This document shows, piece after piece, positions 45,218-64,000 of a stretch of DNA of 64,000 bases. This stretch comes from Marinicella algicola (lineage in GTDB: Bacteria; Pseudomonadota; Gammaproteobacteria; Xanthomonadales; Marinicellaceae). Under the pieces are notes generated by a model. The model did no database searches, was not told the origin of the DNA, and worked only from the letters and a program-made list of their open reading frames with translations. The position numbers and the translations under genes are program-made. The stretch spans positions 436,501 through 500,500 of the forward strand of contig NZ_JAQOMR010000001.1 in the NCBI RefSeq assembly GCF_028401385.1. The letters run 5' to 3'. Positions within the stretch are counted from its first letter, which is position 1; every line of letters starts with the position of its first letter.

Positions 45218-45291
45218 TGGGGAATAGGTTAACGGTAGACCCACGGACTCTGACTCCGTTAGTCCTGGTTCGAATCCAGGTTCCCCAGCCA
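45218..45291 (+). tRNA. tRNA-Gln (anticodon CTG)
   Basis: A 74-base tRNA including an encoded CCA. The acceptor arms TGGGGAA and TTCCCCA pair fully, and the T-arm shows GGTTCGAATCC. The anticodon stem ACGGA/TCCGT closes the loop CTCTGAC, so the anticodon is CTG and reads CAG (Gln). Integrase remnants right of it suggest the 3' end served as an attachment site. Confidence 0.95.
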
Positions 45292-45338
45292 TTTGATTTC
45301 ACAACGCATTCTCAGTTTAGATAGTAGAACAAAGCGGC

Positions 45339-45510
45339 TCAGTTGGACGTTCGTTTGGGGAATTCTGTTCCCGCTTCGAGCTTTCTGATCGCGCTTTCGG
45401 CCAGTCTGTGATCCCGCTTCAGGTAGTGCGAATCGAGGATAGAGCGGACCTGTCGGAGAGAGAGCTCGCTGATGGTCGCGATCTCCGCTCGCGTTTGCGC
45501 ACGCTGTTTT
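45339..45510 (-). pseudogene. Phage-type integrase C-terminal remnant
   Basis: In one frame the minus strand reads QTRAEIATISELSLRQVRSI then LDSHYLKRDHRLAESAIRKLE, ending at a stop at 45341-45339. This is the C-terminal end of island tyrosine recombinases (pattern A-E-I-A-x-I-x-x-x-S-L-x-x-V-x-x-I-L-D-x-H-Y-L). The catalytic domain is missing: upstream the frame dissolves into the truncated DUF4123 gene. The fragment lies some 50 bases from the tRNA-Gln 3' end, where an island integrase is usually placed. It looks like the scar of a deletion that joined integrase to adaptor sequence. Confidence 0.75.
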
Positions 45511-45800
45511 CGCCGAAGGGCCAGTAGATGTGTTCATCCGTCAGCGCGTGGTGATAGAGATCGACAAGCCACGGCCCGCTTGCCTGAAGGCCCGGATCGT
45601 CGCTGAGCCAAAAGGGCGGCAAGCGAGGTCGGCATTTCTGAGCTTCGGGAAGATGCCCTGGACGCAGGCGCCGTCAAACACCGGCCATAGACGCGCGTCC
45701 GGCTTTGCCGTGATCGCCCGCAACGCCTTGCCAAGCTTTTGCGCGCTTCAGGCGTCACCGCATCGGGGGCTGGCGCGGGATCGTCAACCACGGCACTCAT
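45511..45800 (-). pseudogene. Truncated DUF4123 (T6SS adaptor) gene, frameshifted
   Basis: The N-terminal part of a DUF4123 protein, the adaptor family that helps load effectors onto VgrG or PAAR spikes. From 45800 it reads KLGKALRAITAKPDARLWPV, FDGACVQGIFPKLRN, DLACRPFWLSDDPGLQASGP and WLVDLYHHALTDEHIYWPFG after two one-base repairs (T4 45737-45740, G3 45614-45616). Full members have about 270 residues or more; here about 97 remain before the sequence runs into the integrase remnant. The two repairs may be base-calling errors, but the truncation is not explained by them. Confidence 0.6.
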
Positions 45801-45858
45801 CCTTCATGCCCGGACTGGCGCTGTCTGCCATGGCGAGCGGGCAGGATGCCGAGCCGCC

Positions 45859-46111
45859 TCAGCCGATGGCATCGCCGAGCCCGACCGGCCGCGCGGCCAT
45901 TGATGAACACGGTGGGCGATCCTGCGGCAAGGGCGCGGCCATAAGCAGGGGCCGGGCATGTTGGGCACCCATGGGCGGCGTAGCTGTCGCCGACGTGCAT
46001 GGCGGGCTTGCCGTTGATGACGTCATCGCCGCTGCCACCGGTGGCCGGCGCCGGCCGATAGTGGCAGCCATGGCCGGAGCCGATATCGCCCTTTCTGTGG
46101 GCTGGAGGCAT
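45859..46111 (-). CDS. PAAR-domain protein (T6SS spike tip), frameshifted
   Basis: A small PAAR protein of about 83 residues that caps the VgrG spike. It reads PPAHRKGDIGSGHGCHYRPA, then DDVINGKPAMHVGDSYAAHG, SPTVFINGRAAGRLGDAIG, the repeating pattern V-x-x-x-G-x-x-x-x-R-x-G-D of PAAR. One extra base near CCC 45880-45882 shifts the frame; removing it gives the end RLGDAIG with a stop at 45859-45861. It begins ahead of the DUF4123 fragment, a common adaptor-spike pairing. No effector extension is visible. Confidence 0.72.
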
Positions 46112-46219: not shown

Positions 46220-47073
46220 TCACCACTGGCAGGCACGCCGCAGCGGCGGCAGCATGTCTGCGAGATTGCCCATTTCGAAAAGGAGGGCACGATTTTCATT
46301 ACCGATGCCGAGCGATATCTGGATGCGCGGGGCGGTGCGCCATCGGGTAATGTCGGCGATGCTGGTGAGGCCGCGGGCGTTCATCAGCACGGTGCCATCG
46401 GCGATGGCCTGCCAGGTTTCGGTTTCCGGCCGGCCGCTCGCCGTTCTGATTTCGATTGCGTGGGGACCGAGCGAAAGAGGTTGCGGCAGGATCAGGCGTG
46501 CAGTGGTGATATTGGCCTCGCATGACAGCATCAGGATGGCGCGGTTGTCCGACCCCATTGCATCCGAGGGCGGCGTTTCCGGCATGGTCAGGTAGATGTT
46601 GGTCGTGCCCGGCTGAAGCAGGTCGCCGGGGATTTGCGCGGCGTAGATGGCTGCGCTCTTTTCCGGCAGCGCGCCGTTTTCGGTCGGCGGCGGCGGGGCC
46701 GCTGGGGCTGCGGCGGCTTCGGCCATCAGTTCCGGCAAGGTCAGCAGACGGTTGGAGCCGACCCGTGAATAGCGAAACTGCCAGCCGTCATCGCCTGCCG
46801 CCCGTGCCCGTTCCATCGCATGCGCCAGAGCGGCGATGGGCGTTTTTCCTGCGAAGGCGGTGCAGGCGCATCGGATGGCGAAACGCCACCGGAAAGCACT
46901 GACATCGGCGTGCCCAGCAACTGGTCGAAACAATCGAGCCGGTTCAGCCGGTCGACGGTTTGCAGGCAGGTTCCGAGCCCCGCCTTTGGCACCGCCACGG
47001 TCTCCGCTGCCGCCGCCGGGTGAGCGGCAAGCAGAAGGCCGCTTATCAGTGAGAGCAGAACCGGCGTTTTCAT
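46220..47073 (-). CDS. tagO: T6SS-associated protein TagO (VasI), frameshifted
   Basis: An exported protein of about 284 residues. The signal peptide MKTPVLLSLISGLLLAAHPAAA is followed by CLQTVDRLNRLDCFDQLLG, typical for TagO/VasI, and a C-terminal beta domain with ILMLSCEANITTARLILPQP and GLTSIADITRW. In other species TagO guides TagA and sheath assembly. The frame breaks at T5 46843-46847; one more base joins PSQEKTPIAALAHAMERAR. The start at 47073 is chosen because the signal peptide begins there. Confidence 0.72.
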
Positions 47074-47103
47074 ATCGAACCTCGTGTTTGTGGCGGTCAT
47101 CGC

Positions 47104-48705
47104 TCAGACCTCCTCCCTCTCCGTTTCGGTTATGCTCTCGTCACCGGCGCAAATGCCGTAGCGCGCCAGTTTTCGCGACAGCGTCCGGCGCGGAACACCT
47201 AGAGCCAGCGCCATTTCCGCCTGATTTCCGTGGAAGCGACGAAAGCAACGCGCAAGGATATTGATCTCGGCCTTGCTGACCATTTCCTTAAGCCCGCCTT
47301 GATCGGCTTCTGCGTTATCGGGTGCGTCGATCGCAGCAGAGGCAGCGCCGGCAAGCAGCGAAGCATGCGCCTCACGCACCTCTGCCAGAGAGATTTCGCC
47401 CTCGTCGCGGGCCAGCAGCACGCAGCGGAGTAGAAAATTCTGCAGTTCGCGCACATTGCCGGGAAAGGAATGGGTCTGAAGTTCGGCCATCGCCTCGGCG
47501 GTGAACGTCTTCACCGGCTCGTCTTCGCGAGCTGCAATCTCGGCGAGGAAATATTGGGCGAGATAGGCGATATCGCCCTCGCGTTCACGCAATGGCGGAA
47601 GCTTGATCGCAAGCTGAGCGATGCGGTGATAAAGATCGGCGCGGAAGGCTCCTCGCCAATGGCGGCCTTGATGTCGCAATGGGTGGCGGTGATCAGTCGG
47701 AAATCGACATCGTGCTCGATGTCGGCGCCGAGTGGGCGCAGCTTCCGCTCCTGAAGCACTCGCAGCAGCTTGGCCTGAAGGGCGGGCGGCAGGTCGCCGA
47801 TCTCATCGAGAAATAACGTGCCGCCATCGGCCCTCTTGATCAGGCCCTCGCGTGCGGCATCGGCGCCGGTGAAGGCGCCTTTTTCGTAGCCGAACAGCTC
47901 GCTTTCCATCAGGCTTTCCGGAATGGCGGCGCAGTTTTCGGCAATGAAGGCTTTCGCCTTGCGCGGCGACAGGCGGTGCAGTGCGCGGGCAGCCAGTTCC
48001 TTGCCGGTCCCCGTTTCCCCTCCAGCAGCACGGCGTAGTCGCGGCCAGCATAGCGCGCGATCTGGCTGCGCAGATTGGCCATCTGCGGCGATTGGCCGAC
48101 TAGCCTTTCGGCAAGCGCGTCGTCGAGCCGCTTCCAGCCGTCCTCGGCGCGCTTGCCGGTCTGGTCGTTGGTCCGGTTCGCAAAGGCATCAACCAGTGGA
48201 CGCAGCGCAAGGAAGGCCTGAAACAGCCAGGATAGAGCTGTGGCCTTTTGCGACAAGCCGGCATCGAGTAGCGCGCGCACATTGAAAAAGCAATACCCGC
48301 ACCTGGGTGGAAGCCGTTTTGCGCGTCCTCATTGAAGCGGGAATCGAGCCGGAAGGCCAGCAGGCGGCCATGAGTTTCGAACAGGCTTTTGCGTAAGGCC
48401 TCGTCGTCGCCGAACGTCGCCTTACCATGGCAATAGGCATTCTGGCGCTGCATGGCGAGGACGGCTGCCGGCGGTCTCCTGTCCAAGCCGAGGGCAAGCT
48501 GCGGTAACCGGTCGGTCGGCATCGTGCTATCGCCGGCAAGCGGCATCAGCACGCGCCCGGTCGCGTCAACGGCATAGACCGCCATGCCAATGGCCGGCTG
48601 GATATCAAGCGCCGCTTTGATGAATTGACTGCGCAACTGGCCATCGGTGCGCGCCGTCATCATGCGCAAGCCTGCCTCCCCGATGTCGTCAGCCACAGCC
48701 TCCAT
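47104..48705 (-). CDS. vasH: VasH-type sigma-54-dependent activator, three frameshifts
   Basis: An NtrC-family enhancer-binding protein of about 534 residues that activates T6SS genes with sigma-54. The N-terminal sensing region (about 1-190) has no receiver domain. The AAA+ core shows [18 protein letters not shown] (Walker A), the GAFTGA loop, [13 protein letters not shown] (Walker B) and FRADLYHRI, and the C-terminus a Fis HTH ([20 protein letters not shown]). Repairs at A5 48285-48289, C4 48017-48020 and CC 47651-47652 are needed. The GAFTGA motif is intact, so sigma-54 contact is expected. It follows clpV with a two-base gap. Confidence 0.85.
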
Positions 48706-48707
48706 CG

Positions 48708-51402
48708 TCAGCCACCGTCCGCCAGTTGGGGAGACCGCTCGCGCGGTTCCGTCCGCGCAATCGTTTCAAACGAGAAGCCGTGCTCCTCGTCGTAGTCGAC
48801 GACGATGGTCCCAAGCGCGATGCCCTGTTGCCCGGCCTCCAGAATTTCGAGTGAAATGGTCGGCAGTAATTGCCGCTGGATGATCTGATCGACGAAGCGT
48901 GCGCCATTAGTCGAAAAACCGCACATGGAGCGGATGCGCGCGGCGGCATTGTCGGTGACCGTCAAGGCGATGCGCTGGCTGTCGGCGAGAAGTTCCTTCA
49001 GCCCGCCGAGTTTCATGTCGACGATTTCGGCCATGACCGCTTCGGAAAGTGGCAGGTAGACGATCGGCTGCATGCGCGCGAGCAGTGCCGGCTTGAAATG
49101 CTGGACGAAGACCGGTTGCAGCGAGCGCGCCATGGTTTCGGCCGATGGCGTCTTGCCGTCCTCGGCCGTCGCCACCCAGTTTTCGATCTGGTCCGAGCCG
49201 AGATTGCTGGTCAGGAAGAAAACGACATTCTTGCAGTCGATGGCGCGCCCTCGCCATCGGCGAGTTCTCCCTTGTCAAAGGCCTGGTAGAAAAGGTTTAG
49301 CACATTGGCATCGGCTTTTTCGACCTCGTCGAGCAGAACCACGGAATAGGGTTTCTTGCGGATGGCCTCCGTCAAGATGCCGCCCTCGCCATAACCGACA
49401 TAGCCGGGCGGCGAGCCGATCAGGCGCGAGATGGTGTGGCGCTCCTGATATTCCGACATGTTGATCGTGGTCAGGAACTGCTCGCCGCCAAAAAGCTGTC
49501 GCGCAATCTCAAGCGCCGTTTCCGTCTTGCCGACGCCGGAGGGCCCGGCGAGGAAGAACACGCCCAAGGGTTGGCCCTTGCGGTGCAGATCGAGACGCGA
49601 TGCTCTGAGCCGCTCCTCGATTGCCTTTAGCGCATGGTTCTGGCCACGGATCGTCTGCCCCATGGTTTCGGCCAGCGTCAGCAGTTTCTGATAATCGTCG
49701 GCCACCATGGAGGTGACCGGAATGCCGGTCCAGTCGCCGATGACGGCGGCAATTTCGGCAGCGCCCACATCGACGGGCACCAGGCGGTCGGCAAGAGCGA
49801 TGCGGCTGAAGCGTTCGGCGGCATCGGCAAGATCCGGCTGATCTGTATCGGGTTGCGGGGCCTTTTCATTGCCTGAGCCGGTTTCAAGGAGGCTGCGTCT
49901 TTGCTCCAGCAGCGAACCCGCGATTTCACTCTGTTCGGAGAATTCCTTCTCCATCCTGCCGATTTCATCCTCGAGCACATCGAGACGGTTCTCGATAGCA
50001 GCAAGGCGCTCGTCTTGTTCATTCGTGAGGGTACCGATAGACTGGTCGCGCAGCAGTCCGTCGCGTTCCCGCATCAGGGCCGCGCGTTCCTCGCCATGCC
50101 TTTGAAGTATTGGCGGACTTGCCGAGCGTGCGGCCGAAACCCGCGCGCAGGCCGTATCGATAACATCGAGCGCCTTGTCAGGCAGCTGCCGGCCGGTGAT
50201 GTAGCGCGCGGAAAGGCGGGCCGCTGCGTCCAGCGCGGCCTCGGTGATATAGACGCCATGCGCCTTTTCATAAGCAGTTTTCAACCCGCGCAGGATGATG
50301 ACGGCCTCGTCCGCCGTCGGCTCATCGAGCTTGATCAGCTGAAATCGCCGGGTGAGGGCCGGGTCTTTTTCGAAATATTGTTTGTATTCGCTCCAGGTGG
50401 TGGCCGCTATGGTCTTCAGTTCACCACGGGCGAGTGCAGGTTTGAGAAGGTTGGCTGCATCCGAGCCGCCCTTGTCGCCGCCAGCACCAATCAGTGTATG
50501 GGCCTCATCGATAAACAGCACGATCGGTGTGGGGCTGGCCTTGACCTCGTCGATCACGGATTTCAGCCGCTTTTCGAACTCGCCCTTCATTGAGGCGCCG
50601 GCCTGCAGCGAGCCGATATCGAGGCCCCAGACCTCCACGCCCTTGAGCGGTTCAGGCACGTTGCCCTCGGCAATCTTGAGCGCAAACCCCTCGGCCAGCG
50701 CCGTTTTGCCGACACCGGCCTCGCCCACGCAAATCGGGTTGTTTTTGCGGCGGCGGCACAGGATTTCGATGATTTGCCGGATTTCAGCGTCGCGGCAGAA
50801 CACCGGATCGATGCCGCCATTGCGTGCCAGTTCGGTAAAATTCGTGCCGTAGCGGGAAAGCGCGCTGTCTGATGTGTCGGGTTCTTGCGCGCCGACTTGG
50901 CCGCCGGGACCTGCGGTTCCCAGCGTCTCGACCGAACCGGACGTCAGCGTTTCAAACCGTTTGAGAATGTCCTCGGCGGAGAGTGTTTCCAGCAGATTGT
51001 AATAGGAAAAATCGAGATAGCGGCCCGCGTCGGACAGCATGGCGATCAGCACGGCGCCGGAACGGATCGAAGGCTCCTTCAGTTGCACCGATGCGACGAT
51101 CCAGGCGTCCTGAAGAAGATCGAGGAGGAGCGGCGAAAACGTCGGCGTGCGGTCGGCCTCGCTCTGGCGCAGTCTGGCGAATGTTCCTCGACAGTCTCTT
51201 TCGTCTGATCGGGCGAAAGGTTGTTTTCCTGCAGGATGACACGCATATCATTGCCGGGCTGGCCAAGAAGGCAGAACAGAAAATGTTCGATGGTGACTTC
51301 GCGGTGATACCGCGCCACGCAAAGCGATCCGGCTTCCTCGATTGCCAGCCGCGAACCCCGGTTGAACCTTTCGATGATTGCCCGGATATCCAGACGCGCC
51401 AT
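48708..51402 (-). CDS. clpV: T6SS ATPase ClpV (TssH), two frameshifts
   Basis: The AAA+ unfoldase that recycles the contracted TssB/TssC sheath. About 898 residues: an N domain (1-150), AAA1 with Walker A GEAGVGKTALAEG and Walker B VLFIDEAHTLIGAGG, the coiled middle domain, AAA2 with GPSGVGKTETALE and VVLLDEVEKAD, and a C-terminal D2 domain. The first break (AA 51180-51181) is repaired to EEHFARLRQSEADRTPTFS; the second (CCC 49248-49250) to GEGRAIDCKNVVFFLTSNLG. Both nucleotide sites are intact. Confidence 0.92.
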
Positions 51403-51417: not shown

Positions 51418-52246
51418 TCAAAGTATATTCTGCAATTGCTGGATCACCTGATCCGTGTAGTGGCCAAGGCGAATGTAGAAGGCGGCGAAGGTGCCGATGC
51501 ACAAAACCGCGAACAGGATCCATATCAGCGACACAGGCGTCTGGCGGCGAATGATATGGGCTTTGCTGATGACCTTGTCGCGAAACGAGGTCAGCACTTC
51601 CGGCGGATCGCCGCGTTCCTTGCGAATGGCGTCGTGGACTTCGCGGATTACGGTTTCGAGCTGGCTGCGACCGTTGTGCATGACCCTGTATTTGCCTTCG
51701 AAATCAAGGCAGAGCAGTAGGTACAGAAATTCAATGAGCTCGATATAGCGTTCCGGATCGCGCATCAGCCGCGCCAGCACGATGAAGAATTTCTCGCCGC
51801 CCCAGGTCTCGGAATGGTACTGCGCCAGCAGGCTGCGCCCCGACCAGTCGGAATCCTGGCCCCAGGGCGAGCACATGACCGCTTCATCAACGGCCGTGCA
51901 CAGGCAATATCGATGGGCAAGGATCGTCGCGCGGTCGTAACCCTCCCGATGCAGCTCCAGCTCGATGGATTCTGATTTCGGCGCTGATATCGTGGTGAAG
52001 ATGGTCGATGTTTTCAAAATTGCGGACGTCGGGAATGCGTGCCAGAAGCGCCAGCAACGGCTGGCTGGCATCGACAATTTTGTTGAGGCTGTTGCCGCGC
52101 AGCGGAAACGACAGGCGTGACGGCGCATAGGTTCTGGCCGAAACCGTCTTCATTTCCGGGGTGTCATTGGCCTCGATGAGCCTTTCGCTGTCACCCTCCC
52201 TACCGGGCTCGAATATGCCCGTTTGGCCCTCGGTCAAATCGCTCAT
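51418..52246 (-). CDS. tssL: T6SS membrane-complex protein TssL (DotU), frameshifted
   Basis: The inner-membrane partner of TssM and TssJ, about 275 residues with a cytoplasmic helical domain and one C-terminal transmembrane helix (about 230-255, SLIWILFAVLCIGTFAAFYI). Family marks are NKIVDASQPLLALLARI, TILAHRYCLCTAVDEAVM, WSGRSLLAQYHSETWGGEKFF and YLLLCLDFEGKY. The reading frame shifts near 51973 by what looks like one extra base; removing it gives SAEIESIELELHREGYD. No C-terminal OmpA domain is present. The start ATG overlaps the tssK stop. Confidence 0.9.
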
Positions 52247-53595
52247 GTCATTGCCCTCTCATTGCGGATGGCCCAGAACTGCATTTCGAGATCGGGGAAG
52301 TTGCCGGTCACGTGGAAAGCGAAGCCGCTAGCATCTTCGATGTACTTCCAACCCGGTGAGTTTTCATCAAGCTGGAAATAGGTGAACCCCGCATGATACG
52401 GCAACTGGCGCGGCGGCGCTGGCAGACGTTGCAGCACCACGCCGGGCAGTTGCACGTGGATCAGTTCGCGGATCTTTTCGATCGATGAGACCTTGGTCTG
52501 CGCCGGAAACTCCAGCGACAGTTTTTCCAACTGAACGCTCGCCTTCACGGCAATCACGAAAATAGCGGTCTTCAGCAGTGACCGGTCATTCAGCGGCGTG
52601 GTGTAGACGCCGTATTTCTGCTTGTTGAGCGGCAGCGCGACCGCATTCGCCTCGAAGATCGCCGTCAACGACTGGCGCAATGAAGTAATCACCGGTTCGA
52701 AGCAGATGGCCGGCTCTTCGTGGTGGTAAGGGGGCCACATTTCCGGCATCCGCTTTTCGTGGGTAAAGGTCGCAAGCTCGCCCGCCGCTCTTGCCAGAAC
52801 CATATAGAGATCACGCAAGTGAATGCCCTGAACCGTGGCGAGATGCCTGAACTCCGGCCACAGCCTGTTGATGGTCTGCAGCATCAGGAAATCCGAGACA
52901 TCCGAGACGCCACGCTGCCCGGGCGTGCCAAGCCGCTCGGCAATCTGGCGGGCGCGCTGCTGCAACAGGCCGACGAAATCCTCAAGCGTCTTCTTCAACT
53001 GTGGGGTCGCTTCGAGAGCCGATGCAGTCGGCAGAAAGCGGTCATCGAGAACGAGGCTGCCGTCGGATCGTTTCTCGCGGATACGGGCGATCGGAAGGCA
53101 AGTATAGGAGGAGCGATCCTCTTCCTCAAGCATCAGCCGCAGACGGTATTGCGCGACATTGATGTCTAATGTCTCGGTTTCCGCAGAGGCATTGTCGCGT
53201 ACCTCCTGCAACACCGCGCTCATGCGCACATGCGACTGCGGTTGATCGGAATCCTCGATTTCCGGCACGCCATTGAGCCTGAGAGGCAGCGCGAGATAGA
53301 CGCGCTGATCGACGATATTGCGCCCGCTGACATCGAGTGCTGCCGGCGGCTTGGTTTCGCCGGGAATGTCGAGCACCGAACCATCCGGAAACACGCCGCG
53401 CGCACTGTCGATAACGACCTTGCCGTGTAGCAGGTTCTCCGGACTGATCTCGACCTTTGACAGGCCTGTTTGATAGGCGTCGACGCCCTCGATCCGCGCC
53501 CTGATAAGATATTCGATATATCTCTGTTGTTGCTGGAAATGATGGGGTTTCAGAAACAGCCCGTCGCGCCAGACAACATGATTTCTCAATGACAT
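52243..53595 (-). CDS. tssK: T6SS baseplate protein TssK
   Basis: TssK links the baseplate wedge to the TssM/L/J membrane complex. The 450-residue protein is full length and in frame. It opens VVWRDGLFLKPHHFQQQQRY and contains the family blocks VSDFLMLQTINRLWPEFRHL and HLRDLYMVLARAAGELATF. It overlaps tssL by four bases (ATGA at 52243-52246). Confidence 0.95.
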   Translation of the reverse strand: MSLRNHVVWRDGLFLKPHHFQQQQRYIEYLIRARIEGVDAYQTGLSKVEISPENLLHGKVVIDSARGVFPDGSVLDIPGETKPPAALDVSGRNIVDQRVYLALPLRLNGVPEIEDSDQPQSHVRMSAVLQEVRDNASAETETLDINVAQYRLRLMLEEEDRSSYTCLPIARIREKRSDGSLVLDDRFLPTASALEATPQLKKTLEDFVGLLQQRARQIAERLGTPGQRGVSDVSDFLMLQTINRLWPEFRHLATVQGIHLRDLYMVLARAAGELATFTHEKRMPEMWPPYHHEEPAICFEPVITSLRQSLTAIFEANAVALPLNKQKYGVYTTPLNDRSLLKTAIFVIAVKASVQLEKLSLEFPAQTKVSSIEKIRELIHVQLPGVVLQRLPAPPRQLPYHAGFTYFQLDENSPGWKYIEDASGFAFHVTGNFPDLEMQFWAIRNERAMT

Positions 53596-54164: not shown

Positions 54165-55647
54165 CTACCGCTCCTCTCCCAAGCCAGCGAGCGCCTTGCT
54201 GCGCATCTCGCGGTCATAGACCTGCCGGAAAATCTCCCAGAACATGCGGGTGAGACCGCGCTGGCGGTCGGACTTCATCTCCTCGTAATAGTGACGGTAC
54301 ATCTGCCAGTGCCAGGCATCCTGATCGCCAATGCGCGGCGCATGGCCCTTGTAGCGGGCGAAGCGGCGCGAAAGCTGGTCCGGCGCCAGTGCCGCCAGCA
54401 CAGCGCCCAAAGCCGCATCGATCGCAACCCGGCTCGCCTGTTCATGGGCGCTGATCTGCTCAAGACTTTCCTCGATGGCAGCAGTGGCGTTCAGATGAAC
54501 CGGGCTTTGAACCAGAAACAGATCGCGCATCGCCTCCTCGGTGCTCATGTCGAGACGCAACGGATTGTCTTCGACTGGATGCAGATGTGTGTCGCTGAGA
54601 TTGTTGCGGTCCTCGCCCTGGAGACTGTGAATCGCCATAAGCCCGGAAACAGCCGTTTTCAGCGCCGAACCCGTCTCGCGCGCAAGTCGGTTCGCCTCCG
54701 GGACCGGCATATCGGCGACCGGCAGTCCCATGGCCTGCATCAGCGGGCGGAGCACCACGTGATCGACCTGCTCGTCGTCTTCCAACTGCCCTGTCCTGGC
54801 GGCGGCGGGCCATTCCTCCCGCTCGCGCATTTCCTGAAGACCGCCTTCAACCGAGCGGTTTGCCAACTCGTCGAGATAGTCTTCCAGTTCCTCGCCTTCC
54901 TTCGTGACGCCAGGGCTTGCGAAATTCGCATGCTCGGCCATCGGATCGTCGACGCCGGGCCTCTTCTTGCTCGACTTCGGCTGGAGATTCAGGTCGTCGA
55001 TCAGATCTTTCTTGTCTGGCATGGCTCTCATTCCTCGTTGGCTGTCGAACAGAACGACCGGGTCGTTGGACAAGTCCATCTCTCCGCTGGCGGTTCGGTC
55101 GAGATGCGTCACCGGGTCGATCCCCTCATCGAGATCGGTGTCGTCGCGTTCGAAAAAACGCTTCCGCCGTCGTCGGCCTCCGAGGTATCGGCAAGCAGTG
55201 CGGCAGCATCAATCTGCTCATCGCGGCTTTCGCCCTTGAGCGTGCCGGGGATGATCGTTTCCACGGCGGAAAAGCGCTCTTCCCACCCCTGAAAGCTCTC
55301 GCCTCTGCCCTTTTCCCGGCTTCGTCGGCGGCGAGATAGACGGAAACGTCGAAGTCGCCGATCCTCCATCGGTCGCCATCGGAAATCGAAAACGCGGCAC
55401 CCCTGGGCAGGGGACGCGAGGAGCCGTTGACGACTATTCCCTCGTCATTTTCGGGCATGGCACAGAAACGGCCATCCTGAAGATATACGCGGACATGATG
55501 CGGACTGACGGATCCGGTGCGATCGGCAAGACGCCAGTTTGCGTCTTCGTCCGAGCCTACGGTTCCGCCGTGCTCGGAAAATACGGCGGTTGCGACAATG
55601 CCGCTTTCCAGATTGATGGTGTTATTGACGGCGAGGATCAGACGCAT
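54165..55647 (-). CDS. tagH: T6SS FHA-domain protein TagH, two frameshifts
   Basis: About 494 residues. The N-terminal FHA domain (1-100) has GGTVGSDEDANWRLADRTG, VSPHHVRVYLQDGRF and VVNGSSRPLPRGAAF, the phosphothreonine-binding fold. A C-terminal type-VI-FHA domain ends EIFRQVYDREMRSKALAGLG. The middle is acidic and low in complexity. FHA-type Tag proteins take part in Thr-phosphorylation control (PpkA/PppA), but neither enzyme gene lies in the window. Breaks near 55291 and at A6 55153-55158 need one base each. The ATG at 55647 follows GGGGAGA, two bases past the tssG stop. Confidence 0.82.
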
Positions 55648-55649
55648 TG

Positions 55650-56751
55650 TCAAAGTCTCCCCGTCACGCGGACATCGCGGCGGCTTGCCTCACCGGTTCC
55701 CAGAAACGAAGACCAGCCGAGGTGCGAGCGATATCCCTCAACCTCTTCGGGCGAAACCTCTTCGCGCCCATGCAGGCAAAGCGGTTTGGCCTCTCCGGCC
55801 GCGAGACCGAGTTTGATGTCATAGGCATGCTGGTCGCGCAGCATGAACTCGATGAGCTGTTTCACCGCCTCATGGCTGCTGCCGCGCGGCAGGAATTCCT
55901 GGAAGCGTTCGAAGCCGAGATTTTTCAGGTAGATGTTGAACTTCGAAGCGATGTCGGGAACGCGCTCGCCGATGACGGCGCTTTCGCCCAGCACCGAATT
56001 CAACCGGCCAAGAGAGAACTGTTGTTCGGTGGGAATATCAACCTTGCGCCGGATCCATTCCTCGACTTCGACATCCGGATGGAAGAAGGCATGGGCCACA
56101 ACGGATGACACCACCTGCGGCGATCTGTTGCGCGAGGCGAGCAGGCCGGTGAAGGTCAAAAGCCTCGCCCAGTTGATCGGCGACAGTTCGCGCGCTTCCC
56201 GGTCGGCAAGGCCGAACAGGCAGAATATCGCCTGCGAGAAATCATCCTTCGCACCGGGCTTGTAGCGCACATAATAGCGGTATTTGCGCATCGTGCGATG
56301 CATCAGCCCGACAAGCCGGTTGTGGAAGAAATCGAAGAAGCCCTTCAGCAGGGAGCCCTCGGCATCATAGCGCGCAACCGTTTCCTGATAATAGGAGGGC
56401 AGGGGGAGCCTGCCCCATGCAGGCCGAGAAATGTCACTTCCATGCGGAAGCGTTCGCGCCTGTCAGGTAAGACCGCCTTCTCGCGCTGATTGACGTCATC
56501 AATGGCATGGGCGTCGCCCGGCCCCTTTTCTTCAAGTACGATGCTGTTAATGTCGGACACCGGGAAACCGAGGCGGTTGTCGACGCTGAAAACGATTTTT
56601 CGTCTGCCGGAAGCATGTGGGTTCCCGCCTCCGTCCCGTCGTCGAAAGCGCGCTGCGTCTGCTCAACCGCCTGGAAGAAAGACCAGGCGCGGGCATCGCG
56701 GACCAGAAGGTCCGTCAGATGATCGGCTGCCGACCTGTCTTCGCTGGCCAT
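55650..56751 (-). CDS. tssG: T6SS baseplate protein TssG, two frameshifts
   Basis: About 367 residues of the wedge protein. The start at 56751 (MASEDRSAADHLTDLLVRDA) leads to RAWSFFQAVEQTQRAFDDG, the family opening, and the C-terminal half contains LFGLADREARELSPINWARL and LLASRNRSPQVVSSVV. Breaks at T5 56596-56600 (repair gives DEKIVFSVDNRLGFPVSD) and G5 56402-56406 (gives GSPLPSYYQETVARYDAEGS) are one-base deletions. The start overlaps the tssF end by 37 bases. Confidence 0.9.
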
Positions 56752-58521
56752 TGGTAAACCTCGTTGTTTTCCTCTCCTTCCACGATGAGTTCGTGGAAGG
56801 AGTTGATGCTGGCATAAAGGGTGAAGAACTCGGCAAGCACGCTGGCGAACAGATACATGTCGCCCTCGCTCTGAAAGCATGACTCGCGGATGGTCATGCG
56901 CGTCAGCAATCCGCGGATCGGCTGGCCGCGAAACAACTTGTCGAAGGGTTTGGTGTCGATCGCGCGGATGCCGTCCATGCGCTGGCGGCTGGTGCGCTCG
57001 GCGCGGCGGTCAGCATAGGCCTGGAAATCATAGATGGCGATCACAGCGCCAAGCGCGTCTTTGTTCAGCAGCGACACATAGTTCAGGGCGAGATTGGAAA
57101 TCATCGTCCAGTAGAGAGACCCATCAAGCGGCGGGTAGATCGGGGCTGTCGGCTGGCGCAGATTGCGAAAGGTGACAAAGGCAGGCGTGTCCTCGGTCAT
57201 GACGCAGATATCGCCGCCGCCGAGTTCGCGGGCGTGGCGGTTGTTGAAGCAGCTCAGCTCGGACGAGAACCACTTCGTAGTCTGGAACGGCACTCGAATT
57301 GTCGTGCCGGACGAAGGAAATGAGGTGATCGGCGCCAGTCTGCCGCAGGGATTCCCGCATTCTGAGCCGGAAGTAGATCTGCGTCAGGTTCTGCTGGCGT
57401 TCTACCTCGTGATGAAAGGACTCAAACGCCGGATATTCACGCAGATGCTGACCGGTTGCGGGTTCGCCCTCGGAACGCCAACTCACCACCCGGTCGATCG
57501 AAAAGATTGCCTTCGCGCCGTCACCATTGGAGGACGGTCGCAGGGGATAGTGAAGTCGGCGGTGATCGACCTTCATCGGTTCGGCATCATGACGGAACAG
57601 GTTGATGGCCGGCGTGCAGTAGAGCTGCACGGTGTCCGGGCGCACCTTGACGTCCGGCGGCAGCGGTCGCTCGAACTGAACCGACAGGCGAAACGTCATG
57701 CCGCCTTCATTGCCGAGGCTTTCGCCGAAGCGGAGAAGATCGAAGCACTGGAATTTTTCGGGGAAGACGAAATATTCCTGCAGCAGACGATAGCCTTCGT
57801 AGGCCGTGTTGCCGGACGGCAGTATCGCCTCGTTCGCCGCGAAACCGCCGGGGTGGACATTGCGCAGCGGAAAGGAAACGGTGCGCCCGCCACTTTCTCC
57901 GCCCGTGACCGTGATGTCGATGGATTTCAGATAGCGACCGAACCACAGATAAAGCATCTGCGCGGTGTGATCGCCGCTTGCAAACCACAGCCGCAGATCG
58001 CGGAGATCGATCATGCCGAGCGGCAGACCGGACAGCGTTTCAAAATCGATGTGCAACGTGGTCGACTGCCGCGATCGCTCAAGATATTGCTCGGCGATCT
58101 CGAGCGGATAGACATGGGTTTCGGACGTTGTTCGAAACGGGCAGACCGTGCCGGATACCGGTCGCGACAGGATGATCGTGCCGTGCGGCACGACTTGCCG
58201 TTCGGTGATCGACTTTTCCTGCGGCGTGAGCTTCATCAGCGCAGTGGATGGAAACGGACGCAGAAAATTCGGCAGCAGCAGATTGACGACGGAATGGGTC
58301 AGTTCCGGCAGTTCGTCATCCAGCTTCTCCCGGAGCCGCGAGGTCAGGAACGCAAACCCCTCAAGCAGACGCTCAACATCGGGGTCCGTCGACTGTTCGG
58401 AAAGATACCGAGCAAGTTTGGGATTGTTTTCAGCAAAGAACCGACCGCTTTCCTTCAGATAGGTCAGTTCGTCCTGAAAATAGCGTGAGCGCGCCGAGTT
58501 TGCCAATTCTGGCTCCTGCAA
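56715..58521 (-). CDS. tssF: T6SS baseplate protein TssF, frameshifted
   Basis: About 601 residues, the usual length. The N-terminal block RYFQDELTYLKESGRFFAEN and DVERLLEGFAFLTSRLREKLDD is strongly conserved, as are PLRPSSNGDGAKAIFS and the C-terminal SELSCFNNRHARELGGGDI. The frame shifts near 57294 by what looks like one extra base; removal gives HDNSVPFQTTKWFSSELS, as in other TssF. I could not find a good ATG: TTG 58521 is the earliest in-frame candidate, and no clear ribosome binding site was seen. The start is therefore unsure. Confidence 0.88.
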
Positions 58522-58650: not shown

Positions 58651-59109
58651 CTAGATAATCTGTGTGGCGTGTCCGTCCCGCATGAGCAGATCGATTTCGA
58701 CCAGTTCCTGCCGCGATTTTGCCGGCACCAGAGCCTGGATCCGGAACTTTAGATCGAGCGGCCGATCCGGATCGCGCATGCACTCGACAGCTTTGACCTC
58801 GACGCGCGGCTCAAAGGTGTTGATGCAATCACGGATCGACGCCGCGATGTGTCGGGTCAGGTCATTGGATTCGATCGACGACTCGTTGAAATCGGCCAAA
58901 CCGAGGTCGGGGGCGGATTGGGAAGCGCCGCTGCGTGCGTTGAGCAGGCGGATCAGGTGGCGCTTGATCGAACGTACGGTTGCCTCCGCGGCATCGTCTG
59001 TGCGCTCGATTGCCACATTCTCCTCGTCCAGCACAAGACGCTCGAACAGGCTGCCGGCCGACCGGCGATCGATGCTGTCCCGAATGTCGCTTTCGCGGTC
59101 CCTTCGCAT
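58651..59109 (-). CDS. tssE: T6SS baseplate protein TssE
   Basis: A 152-residue homologue of the phage T4 wedge protein gp25. It reads SIKRHLIRLLNARSGASQSA then PDLGLADFNE, the EPR/DYG-type region of the family, and ends with RIQALVPAKSRQELVEIDLL. The frame is intact and the ATG at 59109 begins MRRDRESDIRDSIDRRSAGS. A gap of about 130 bases without a gene separates it from tssF. Confidence 0.9.
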   Translation of the reverse strand: MRRDRESDIRDSIDRRSAGSLFERLVLDEENVAIERTDDAAEATVRSIKRHLIRLLNARSGASQSAPDLGLADFNESSIESNDLTRHIAASIRDCINTFEPRVEVKAVECMRDPDRPLDLKFRIQALVPAKSRQELVEIDLLMRDGHATQII

Positions 59110-59122
59110 GGTCGGATTGCGC

Positions 59123-60608
59123 CTATTCTTCCTTGTCGAGCTTGCCCACCAGGGACAGTTCGAAATTGGCGCCCATATATTTGAAGTGCGGACGAACCTT
59201 CAGCGTGACCTGATACCAGCCGGGATCGCCCTCGACATCGGAGACCTCAACGCTTGCCGCGCGCAGCGGACGGCGCGAACGCACATCCGAAGGCGGGTTT
59301 TCCTGGTCGGCGACATACTGCTTGAGCCAGACGTTGAGCTCGCGCTCGAGGTCTTCCTTTTCCTTCCAACTGCCGATCTGCTCGCGCTGCAGCACTTTGA
59401 TATAGTGCGCCAGCCGGTTGATGATCATCATGTAGGGCAGTTGCGTACCGAGCTTGTAATTGGTCTCGGCGGCCTTGCCTTCCTTCGTGTTCTGGAAGAT
59501 TTTCGGCTTCTGAACGGAGTTGGCCGAGAAGAAGGCGGCGTTATCCGAGCCCTTGCGCATGGTCAGCGCGATGAAGCCTTCCTCGGCGAGTTCATATTCG
59601 CGCCGGTCGGTGATCAGGATTTCGGTCGGAATCTTTTCTTCGAGCTGCCCGAAGGCCTCGTAGACATGGACGGGCAGGTCGTACACCGCACCGCCCGATT
59701 GCGGGCCGATAATGTTCGGGCACCAGCGGTATTTGGCAAAGCTTTCGGTCAACCGAGTCGCGAGAACAAAGGAGGTATTGCCCCAAAGGTAATGCCCATG
59801 ATCATCGGTGACACTCTCGGAATAGACGAAGCTCTTGACCGGATTTTCCTCCGCGTCATATGGCTGGCGCAACAGGAAGCGCGGGCAGGTCAGGCCGACA
59901 TAGCGGAATCCTCGCTCTGGCGGAAACCCATCCATTTTCGAAAGCGGGGCCTTCATAAATTGAGAACAAGTCCTTCTGTGCTGGCAGATCGACGAATTCG
60001 TCGACATCGAAAATCTCCGGAGAAGCTGCCGCAATGAACGGTGCATGCGCCATGGCGCCGACCGAGGCGACGAACTGCAACAGCTTGACGTCGCGCGCGC
60101 CGGGACCGAAATCGTAATTGGCGATCATCGCGCCCACAGGCTCGCCACCGAACTGACCGTAGCCGGATGAATAGATGTGTTTGTAAAGACCGGACTGCAC
60201 CACTTCCGGCGCGGTCTCGAAATCCTCCAGCAACCTCTCCTTGGAAACCGGCAGCAGGTCGATCTTGATGTTTTCCCGGAAGTCCGTCTGGTCGATCAGG
60301 AGCTTCAGCCCGCGCCAGGCCGACTCCATTTCTTGAAATCCCTTGTCGTGAATGATCTCGTCCACCTGACGCGAGACCTTCTCATCAAGCTGGGCAATCA
60401 TCTGGTCGACGAGAACACGGTTGATGCGCTCGCCGGGCTTGCGGCTTGAGAGCATGTCGGCGATGAACGCTTCCATGCCCTTACGCGCTATGGAATAGGT
60501 CTCCGTATCGTCCGGACGGATCCGGGTTTCTTCCATGATCTGGTCCAGAAGCGAGACGCTTTGTGTTTCGCCGGACTTTTCCTTGAGAGCAGCACCTGAT
60601 TGGGCCAT
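59123..60608 (-). CDS. tssC: T6SS sheath protein TssC (large subunit), two frameshifts
   Basis: The large contractile-sheath subunit, about 495 residues with start 60608 (MAQSGAALKEKSGETQSVSL). Family marks are ESAWRGLKLLIDQTDF, IANYDFGPGARDVKLLQ, APFIAAASPEIF, YVGLTCPRFLLRQPYD and GGAVYDLPVHVYEAFG. Two breaks 30 bases apart (near 59940, and GG 59905-59906) are repaired by one base each to KWMGFRQSEDSRYVGLTCP. ATG 60659, with a good ribosome binding site, is an alternative start adding 17 residues. Confidence 0.92.
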
Positions 60609-60691
60609 GTTTTTCAACTCCGAACTACGCGCCGATGATTTCGGCAGGTCAAACTGCATTCCGGTATTCCTTCAGGAAAACGGGGACGTAT

Positions 60692-61285
60692 TCAGCCTTT
60701 CTTGTCTTTCGGCTCGTCATCCTTGACGGCGATATCGCCCTCGGGCGTGCCGGACAGGTCAGGCTTTGGCTCTGCCGCCAGTTTTTCAGCCTCTCGCGCT
60801 TCGATGGTCTGCAACTCTTCGACCAGCTTCTGCCGTGCATCCTCGTCCTCAAGAATTTGCTCCAGCCGCTGGCGAAAGGCCGGCATATTGCCGAGCGGAC
60901 CCTTCAGTGCGACAAGCGCCTCGCGAAGCTCGATCAGCTTCTGCAGTTCCGGAACCTGCCGCACCACCGCATCTGGTGAGAAATCCGCAAGGCTCGTGAA
61001 CTCAAGTGTGGTGCGAAGGCGCGCTTCCTCGTCGTCGGAGAGCGTGTCCTTAACCTCCATCTCGCGCTTCAACCCGGCCTCCTTCATCACCGAGGCGAAG
61101 CTGTTCTTGTCCACTGAGAGCATCTCGCGCTCTTCCAGCGGCAAGCCGTCGTCATGACCCAGATAGTCGCCGAGCATGACGAGACGGAGAGGCAGTTCGA
61201 CCTCCTCCTGCTGATCGCCTGTCGCGGGGACATAACGGATATTGATCCGCTCCTTCGGAGCGACGGAACTGTCTTTTCCAGCCAT
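60692..61285 (-). CDS. tssB: T6SS sheath protein TssB (small subunit)
   Basis: The 197-residue partner of TssC. It contains RINIRYVPATGDQQEEVELP, LRLVMLGDYLGHDD, FASVMKEAGLKREMEVKDTL and FSPDAVVRQVPELQKLIELR, the conserved TssB blocks. The acidic-basic tail (KPDLSGTPEGDIAVKDDEP) is longer than usual. It is the first gene of the minus-strand unit, across an A+T-rich gap from tssM. The frame is intact. Confidence 0.94.
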   Translation of the reverse strand: MAGKDSSVAPKERINIRYVPATGDQQEEVELPLRLVMLGDYLGHDDGLPLEEREMLSVDKNSFASVMKEAGLKREMEVKDTLSDDEEARLRTTLEFTSLADFSPDAVVRQVPELQKLIELREALVALKGPLGNMPAFRQRLEQILEDEDARQKLVEELQTIEAREAEKLAAEPKPDLSGTPEGDIAVKDDEPKDKKG

Positions 61286-61556: not shown

Positions 61557-64000
61557 GTGAAGCAGATCTTTGGACTGGCGAAAGCTCTGGTGCGCGGTTT
61601 CTTTGGTGCGCTGAAAAGCCTAGTAAAATCATATGGTACAGCCAGTTTGATCATCGCCTTCGCCCTTTGCGCGTTCATCTGGTTCCTCGGGCCTCGACTC
61701 AAGGTCTACGATTTCCAGCCATTTGGGCCAGTGACGTTCCGATTGATCGCAATCATTGCGATTATATTCTTCTGGGGGCTAAGCAATTTGCTCTTCGGCG
61801 CGGTGAGCAGACGCAGACAGGAGCGGGCTGGGGAAGAAGAGGTGACAAAGGCGCCGCGGGACCCGGTTAAGGATCGCGTTGATGCGTTCGACCGCAGTTT
61901 CCGCAATGCGATGTCCGCCATCGCAAAGCACTGGATCGGCTCTGATGGCAAGCGCGGGAAACGCTCGGTCTATTCGCTGCCCTGGTATGTGATGCTCGGC
62001 TTTCCCTCAGCCGGGAAGACCTCGTTCATCGTCGAGTCCGATCTCAAGTTTCCGCTGGCGCATCTTTTCTCGCAGGAAGACGCCAAGACTGTGACGAAAA
62101 CCGAGGATGTCGATTATTGGGTTACCGATGACGCCGTTGTTTTCGATGTCGCCGGTCAGTTGCTCACCCATCAGCGCAACCGCGAAGACGACAATATTCT
62201 CGACGTTTCGCGACTTCTCTGGGACAAATTTCTGGGTCTGCTGAATGAATACAGACCCCGCAGGCCGATCAACGGCGCGATCGTCTGCATCGATCTCGTC
62301 GACCTTATACAGTCATCGCCCGAAGTCAGGGAAAACAAGGCAGCCCTTCTGCACGCCCGCCTGGTCGAAATGTCGGAAGCGCTCAGCACGCGCTATACCG
62401 TGCATGTCATCCTGTCCAAGCTGGACCTTCTGGACGGTTTTCACGAGTTCGTCTCCGGGCTGACCAAAGCTCAGCGCGAAGAACCTTTCGGTTTCACCTT
62501 CTCGGTCTATTCGGAGAAGGCCGGAGACAGCTGGGTGGCGGAGTTCGAGAAGGCCTATGACGGCTTTCTCGAGCGTCTCAACAATCTGATGCTGGATCGT
62601 ATCGCCGATCAGCACTCCTCGGAGGCGCGACGTAAACTCTATACCTTCACGCGCCAGCTTTCCGGCCTGAAAATGCTGATCAAGGAATTTCTGGGAACCA
62701 GCCTCCATCAGGACAAGTTCTCGACGGCGCCGCTAGTGCGCGGCGTGTTCATGGCCTCCTGCCGCCAGGAAGCTGTGCCGTTCAACGCTGTCCTGACTGC
62801 GGCCTCGCAGAAATACGAGATCCGCCCGCCCGTGCTTGCCGTCCACGGCGATCACTCGAAGCACTATTTCTCGGCCAATGTGCTCAAATCCGTGATCTTC
62901 GAGGAAGCAGGCCTTGCTGGCGACAATATCCGGCTGGAGCGCGCCAAGCGGATGCGGTTCATCCTCTCAGGCGCCGCGGCTTCGGTTCTGTTCATCGGCT
63001 TTGTCGGCTTTTATTGGCAGGCCTATGAAAGCAACCGCGCCAAGATGGACGAGGTCGTCAATATCGCCAGGACCTACAAGGCGGACGGAGAAAATCAGAT
63101 CGCAAACGTGGCAGATGCGGGGCAGTCTTTCCTCAAGCCGCTGAATGCGCTGCGTTCCGCCGGAACCATTTTCGGCAATTATGACCGCTGGGGCGTCGTG
63201 CCGTCCTTCCTGACGCTGTCGCAGGGGCGGAGGATCGGGCCGGTCATCGACAAGACCTATATCGACGTGTTGCAAGACGGTTTCCTTCCCGATCTTGCGA
63301 GCTATGTGGAGACCGATGTCGTCTCACTCGGCAAGTCGGCCGACACTCGCGATGGCGATAAAAGGCTTGAAGACCTGCGCATCTATCTGATGCTTGGTGA
63401 CACGTCGAAACGCAATAATGCGTTGGTGGAGGAGTGGTACGGCGAAGTCTGGCAAACCCTCTATACCGGATACGACCAGACGCAGCAGGACCTTTCCAGT
63501 CATCTGAAATTTGCCGTCGAGGACGCTAACCTGGAAGTCCCGCTTGACCAGACCGAAGTCGCCTCGGCGCAGGCGGATCTGCGCGCCGTGCCGCGAGACC
63601 TGCGCCTTTATCGCAATATCGAGCAGCTTGCCAAAAGCCAGCTTGTGTCGTCCGTCAACTTCAGAAACGAGATCGGGCCGGCCTATAACATCATTTTCAA
63701 GCCTCCGGTCGACGCCAACGGCAAACCGGAACCGGTGGAAATCCCACCCTTCTTCACCAAGGCCGGCTTTACCGACTTTTTGTCAAGCAGAACGAGGCGC
63801 TGTCCGTCGTTGCCATCGAGGACGCCTGGGTGGCCGGCGAGCGCGACACGGTAAGCTATTCCAAGGAGGATCTGGACGCTTTCCGCAAGCAGGTCGCCGA
63901 ACGCTATGCGACCAATTACATCGATACCTGGACCACCGCTCTGAATCAGCTGGACATCGTCGATTTCGGCAGCCTCGACAAGGGCGTCGACGTGCTTGAG
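61557..64000 (+). CDS. tssM: T6SS membrane-complex protein TssM (IcmF), partial, frameshifted
   Basis: The large inner-membrane T6SS channel component, running off the right edge (about 815 residues seen). Two N-terminal helices (about 28-45 and 60-80) precede a cytoplasmic domain with the P-loop MLGFPSAGKTSFIVE, DYWVTDDAVVFDVAGQLLTH and HVILSKLDLLDGF. A third helix near 470-490 (ILSGAAASVLFIGFVGFYWQ) leads to the periplasmic part. The start is GTG 61557 behind GGGAG. One base is missing in T5 63777-63781; repair gives GFTDFFVKQNEALSVVAIED and the frame stays open to the window end. Confidence 0.92.

Follow-up and report, generated by a model that had tools for sequence, protein, structure and literature searches.

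The evidence points, with a probability of roughly 0.78, to a T6SS island that entered a tRNA-Gln(CTG) gene by means of a tyrosine integrase and was later trimmed at both ends. We find the site used by an integrase family, a stump of that integrase, a direct copy of the tRNA end, a T6SS between the two tRNA ends, and two cut edges, the gene at the left edge being of unproven identity. The analysis covers a stretch of 64,000 nucleotides (the window) together with sequence beyond its right end on the same contig (C1). The initial annotation had placed the edge of a T6SS island in tRNA-Gln, and this reading gains support from the integrase relatives found at the same tRNA and from the second copy of the tRNA end.

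ARAGORN places the attachment gene, tRNA-Gln(CTG), at 45218-45291 on the plus strand, which agrees with the tRNA-Gln named earlier at the left edge, and its last 20 bp (45272-45291) recur to the right. A search for a second tRNA-Gln end to the right of the T6SS had been proposed as a check, and it gave GAATCCAGGTTCCCCAGCCA, an exact 20-bp copy in direct orientation at C1:504963-504982. This copy lies outside the window, 23,191 bp (~23.2 kb) from the tRNA end, and ends in CCA as does the tRNA; it starts 865 bp past the end of hcp and 229-230 bp past the break in vgrG. A tRNA island is expected to carry such a copy of the tRNA 3′ end, in direct orientation, at its far border; the one here measures 20 bp as against 44-50 bp in the relatives. 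ARAGORN found no tRNA gene at the site of the right copy. As a control for chance, the reversed sequence over 124 kb gave 12 bp at most, and no further 14-mers of the tRNA were present in 15 stretches of the same genome (323 kb, the tRNA-Gln(TTG) gene lying outside them). It may be noted that a genome-wide search with the 25-mer of the tRNA end, allowing up to 3 mismatches, missed the 20-bp copy, which was found by a shorter exact search of the flank. The 25-mer matched only tRNA-Gln(CTG) itself and tRNA-Gln(TTG) at C1:654004, which shares 29 bases of the same tRNA end at 97%; the latter was considered as the right boundary and rejected, being a whole tRNA gene. The 229 bp between the vgrG start and the right copy had no homologue when compared with 192 loci and the window. 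On the left, a short element end occupies 45292-45338, between the tRNA and the stop codon of the integrase; it starts with TTTGATTTCAC and resembles several relatives among 15 loci compared after the CCA. Seven phage records matched 45218-45500, none of them reaching more than 1-2 bases beyond the tRNA gene, and no plasmid match was found to 45292-45800.

The integrase scar, which comprises the last ~50 codons, lies at 45339-45489 on the minus strand with its stop codon at 45339-45341, and was recognized from phage, plasmid and IMG/VR matches and from DNA alignments. The initial annotation had put the last ~55 residues of a phage-type integrase directly right of tRNA-Gln; the integrase C-terminus stands, and its length comes down to ~50 when taken from the start of homology. 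A search with the integrase piece had also been suggested, and the 61-aa piece (45342-45524) did match integrases: three phage records (43-59 bits), all annotated as integrase, seven plasmid records, two of them so annotated, and 25 IMG/VR loci, in which protein homology starts at query residue 9-13. DNA homology to the relatives starts at 45484-45489 in 9 of the 12 aligned loci and at 45440-45449 in the other three, and the junction at which integrase homology ends and the adaptor-like fragment starts is placed from these alignments at 45485-45494. Of the 25 IMG/VR loci, 24 have whole-integrase open frames of 347-399 residues and the last has one of 584. That a deletion took most of the integrase, as proposed earlier, is supported by the length of the stump and by the sharp end of homology. 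The stump keeps a SHYLKRD stretch, which we take to be the Tyr region of the integrase, while the upstream part with HDLRGT is gone. Also, the stump reads EL where the relatives have the GH of a GHSL stretch, with the Tyr region retained. Pfam assigned no family to the 61-aa piece, and PHROGs gave only weak matches of unknown function. The sole match of the piece in its own genome is the stump itself, and searches with the integrase and with PAAR in the order and family assigned to the genome returned only its own match. What adjoins the tRNA 3′ end is thus a remnant of an integrase whose family uses that tRNA, and with ~50 codons left as the only match in the genome there is no working integrase of its own. 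Excision by the island's own integrase should therefore no longer be possible.

Among the 25 IMG/VR loci, the tRNA-Gln(CTG) end stands beside the integrase at the spacing seen in the window in four (whole in L076, L083 and L084, in part in L077). Two others have tRNA-Lys and three tRNA-Met, and 16 have no tRNA, most of these stretches ending just past the integrase. The integrase family is not bound to tRNA-Gln alone, and this counts against the island model. In f61, a family that we equate with Rhizobiaceae on the strength of Sinorhizobium and Shinella matches, the integrase is present in 29 of 394 genomes (31 matches, 30 loci analysed). Half of these loci (15 of 30, of which 14 have the whole tRNA by ARAGORN) are at tRNA-Gln and the other 15 are not; by tblastn, 9 of the 15 integrases at tRNA-Gln are near full length and 6 are without the N-terminal part. 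On walking outwards in six element-bearing genomes we reached a direct copy of the tRNA end in five, 44-50 bp long and at a distance of 7.4-37.5 kb; in the sixth (G1035) the contig ended first. No T6SS genes were found in the stretches walked in these six genomes, so T6SS cargo is linked to this integrase family by one case.

The T6SS content is sporadic among relatives, as is expected of an island: VasI of this T6SS has matches in 4 of the 394 f61 genomes at 33-34% identity, and T6SS core genes or this integrase were found to the right of tRNA-Gln at none of 20 relatives' sites, a sigma-54 regulator at one of them (L112) aside. These sites were taken one per genome, 14 of them on the contig of ppx, and they belong to distant relatives with right stretches of 0.8-14.5 kb. 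Within that range, a T6SS at the same place with no integrase, which the initial annotation had named as the case that would refute it, was not encountered. Two minor observations were made at the relatives' sites. In L118 (G564) a 51-bp copy of the tRNA-Gln end at 98% lies ~1.3 kb to the right of the tRNA, as a very small element or a remnant. A comparison of L112 with L111 shows ~10.8 kb inserted between tRNA-Gln and the genes that adjoin the tRNA in the neighbour; read by eye, the insert contains dehydrogenases, a transporter and the sigma-54 regulator. The tRNA-Gln site looks like a hotspot.

The initial annotation had a PAAR gene followed by the T6SS block, and profile searches bear this out from PAAR and VasI through TssM. 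The PAAR spike-tip protein lies at 45797-46111 (PF05488, 1.5e-7; its C-terminus is frameshifted in the assembly), followed by a VasI-type T6SS protein at 46220-47100 (profile match, two frames), a VasH-like sigma-54-dependent regulator at 47104-48705 (several frames, with no Pfam match for the ORF at 48100-48705) and the ClpV/TssH ATPase at 48708-51088 (profile match, at least two frames). Next are DotU/TssL at 51418-52128 and TssK (VasE) at 52243-53595, each with a profile match, a T6SS FHA protein at 54165-55653 (two ORFs), TssG at 55650-56303 (profile positions 116-304, the rest not located), TssF at 56715-58521 (two frames), TssE (gp25-like) at 58651-59109 (profile match), TssC/VipB at 59123-60659 (two frames) and TssB/VipA at 60692-61285 (profile match). 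All of these are on the minus strand. TssM (IcmF) starts at 61557 on the plus strand and runs past the end of the window at 64000; its C-terminus, TssA, Hcp, the 62-bp start of vgrG and the second copy of the tRNA end are at C1:500501-504982 (L032), beyond the window. The core apparatus is thus present, with TssA, B, C, E, F, G, H, K, L, M, Hcp, FHA and PAAR, several of them split by frameshifts. T6SS genes make up the greater part of the stretch between the two tRNA copies, and among the ORFs scanned there no mobility or transfer genes were found besides the integrase stump.

At the left edge, the gene after PAAR is represented by its 5′ ~100 codons at 45490-45800 on the minus strand, in three frames in the assembly. 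The initial annotation had joined the first ~97 residues of a DUF4123 adaptor to the integrase; a cut gene after PAAR is indeed present, and it is probably a DUF4123-type adaptor, though no profile matched the fragment. On frameshift-tolerant local alignment to the N-terminal parts of three DUF4123-type proteins the fragment scored 50, 60 and 43; among 400 control stretches from the genome 5, 2 and 6 did as well or better, as did 1, 0 and 2 of 200 shuffles, a modest ranking. Its position is also that of a DUF4123-type gene: of five loci found through PAAR, three have such a gene after PAAR, namely those of Nereida (L006), Tateyamaria (L007) and Jannaschia (L008), with PF13503 E-values of 5e-24, 0.042 and 3.4e-4, of which only the first passes the cut-off for PF13503 and the other two fall below. 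The remaining two loci (L009 and L010) are distant and outside the annotated set. If the gene were instead another spike-associated gene, no statement about a lost effector would be possible; this we regard as unlikely, though worth keeping in view, and it would be compatible with the island reading. It would sit well with the lack of any Pfam match for 45490-45800 at E<=1 or E<=10, where the pieces are short and split over frames, with the lack of a homologue or a protein of similar length at E<=0.1 for the first ORF of the fragment, which is mostly out of frame, and with a small profile built on four relatives, of which just two include the N-terminus, on which the fragment did not rise above controls. 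The place after PAAR and the few control stretches that equal the alignment scores speak against it. A genome-wide PF13503 search found none, though the same search also detected none of 14 controls. In agrobacteria, effector-immunity pairs typically lie just downstream of tap1/DUF4123, according to the portion of PMC8546570 drawn on here. By eye, two further ORFs were read after the DUF4123-type gene in L007 and L008. Such a pair may have been lost here together with the 3′ part of the adaptor.

The far end of the T6SS carries a second cut. After hcp only the first 62 bp of vgrG remain (L032:4172-4233, beyond the window), which are 96.8% identical to all three vgrG loci of the genome before the alignment stops; these 62 bp are the only VgrG sequence in the cluster. 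Also the hcp stretch of the island (1,073 bp) is 90.6% identical to the stretch before vgrG at 1.80 Mb. Whole vgrG genes are present elsewhere in the genome at three places (1.53, 1.80 and 2.88 Mb). Over the three loci nine nearby ORFs were scanned: two of the loci (1.53 and 1.80 Mb) carry a lipase-like ORF as well as DUF2169, and weak ankyrin matches below the cut-off occur at all three. These loci (L191, C1:1526001-1539000; L192, C1:2874001-2887000; L193, C1:1800001-1813000) share near-identical stretches, with 3.1 kb at 99.4% between two of them, 1.7 kb at 98.4% with the third, and 595-981 bp common to all three at 99.7-99.9%; in L191 this common stretch coincides in part with an rve-type transposase. 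The modules with vgrG seem to be recent copies, which the transposase-bearing element may have made. A possible reading, which we offer tentatively and at somewhat less than even odds, is that the island has been pared down to a bare injection machine: both edges would be cut in spike-loading genes (the adaptor after PAAR, vgrG after hcp), the machine would rely on three distant vgrG modules, each lying 4-6 kb from a copy of the transposase-bearing stretch, and machine and ammunition would be separately exchangeable.

Small frameshifts break several of the T6SS genes in the assembly. The essential gene rpoB (C1:576375-580425) is also split by a frameshift, its profile match covering residues 3-769 in one frame and going on with 770-1238 in a second, so the small frameshifts are likely to be at least partly assembly errors. 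Per kb of coding sequence the window has 0.67 apparent frameshifts, in a count that includes overlapping genes; the values for ten other stretches range over 0.24-0.88, and the two control loci have 0.25 and 0.33. The frameshifts say little about gene decay. The integrase piece and the adaptor-like start together occupy 45292-45800, that is 509 bases, which is too short for both genes, so that frameshift correction cannot yield two full genes. Full integrase and adaptor genes after frameshift repair were therefore rejected by length, 509 bases as against integrases of at least 347 residues; the initial annotation had named a full integrase or DUF4123 gene after correction as a finding that would refute it. 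That the junction between integrase and adaptor was collapsed or misjoined, with a longer island in the real chromosome, is highly improbable. The frameshift in rpoB and the rate of shifts in the ten stretches relative to the two controls lend it something, but the assembly has two contigs only, the observed errors are small shifts with no large gaps, and cut integrases are frequent at this tRNA in other genomes (6 of 15).

A more substantial alternative, though still a distinctly unlikely one, is that the T6SS was resident and never cargo: an unrelated prophage or small element would have entered tRNA-Gln, a deletion would have fused the end of its integrase to the T6SS, and the 20-bp copy would belong to another, older element. 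Most of the relatives fetched differ in the right flank of tRNA-Gln, which would fit use of the site by several elements, and the walked stretches that show no T6SS fit this course of events as well. The length of the repeat is also in its favour, since the 20 bp found here are shorter than the 44-50 bp of the family; all five closed elements have the longer repeat, and the own one is either trimmed or from another event. Against a resident T6SS, the copy is exact and direct and lies 865 bp past the hcp end and 230 bp past the vgrG break, as a T6SS-bearing island predicts, and none of the 20 relatives fetched has a T6SS beside tRNA-Gln. Base composition counts against the island model: GC is 59.3% in the island, 58.9% in the left flank and 56.2% in the right flank, and the dinucleotide distance of 0.039 is barely above the maximum of ten 20-kb stretches (0.0376).

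On the preferred reading of a trimmed island, the order and mechanism of the deletions, the content lost and the use of distant VgrG may be pictured as follows. A T6SS-bearing island probably inserted by site-specific recombination into the 3′ end of tRNA-Gln(CTG), with a tyrosine integrase encoded beside the tRNA as the catalyst. A later deletion would have left just the last ~50 codons of the integrase and also removed the adaptor-like gene's 3′ part and all that lay between the two. At the far end a deletion would have cut vgrG back to about its first 20 codons and probably taken part of the right attachment site too. The T6SS apparatus would have been kept and, if working, would receive its VgrG spike from the three distant vgrG loci.

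Islands with a T6SS at a tRNA gene are already known, as are broken integrases, and this example is new. The T6SS elements of the Bacteroidales GA2 type, as covered in the parts of PMC8102008 used here, have direct tRNA repeats of 19-22 bp (tRNA-Phe, -Lys, -Pro) and a recombinase gene inside; the island resembles them in having its T6SS between direct repeats of tRNA sequence. Unlike these integrative and conjugative elements (PMC8102008, same parts), it shows no more than a stump of an integrase, and the ORFs scanned include no transfer genes; the tRNA and the kind of bacterium also differ. For GI-pheV of E. coli, the portions of PMC11537424 used describe an intP4.5 type that carries a putative T6SS cluster, with a deletion remnant in one strain. 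The likeness lies in a tRNA island with an integrase beside the tRNA and a T6SS in one type, whereas intP4 is the sole gene kept in all the GI-pheV islands in these portions (PMC11537424), and here the integrase is cut and the T6SS kept. The tRNA-Gln(CTG) elements of f61 and IMG/VR (L076, L083, L136, L138, L147 and others) share the tRNA with the island and have a related integrase C-terminus, a similar spacing and a similar element-end sequence; they differ in the repeat (20 bp here as against 44-50 bp in five closed elements), and the stretches walked show no T6SS. The agrobacterial vgrG/tap1 loci, in the portion of PMC8546570 drawn on, share with it a vgrG downstream of hcp, and their DUF4123 adaptor, typically with an effector-immunity pair after it, has a probable counterpart here; this adaptor-like gene, however, stands after PAAR at the other end of the cluster and is truncated, as is vgrG.

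The island may serve as a case of how a T6SS becomes fixed in a chromosome, with arrival on a tRNA island, loss of the integrase and of both spike-linked edges, and retention of the apparatus. Also, in the f61 (Rhizobiaceae-like) genomes one integrase family is often located at tRNA-Gln(CTG), and the repeat lengths measured there aid the drawing of borders. As a separate observation, the ppx product of the source genome has only 23-30% identity to the family assigned to it, and a comparison with a phylum-wide sample of 398 genomes gave 74-76% DNA identity over 1.7 kb to five genomes of another family, f61; the family and order assigned to the source genome look wrong.
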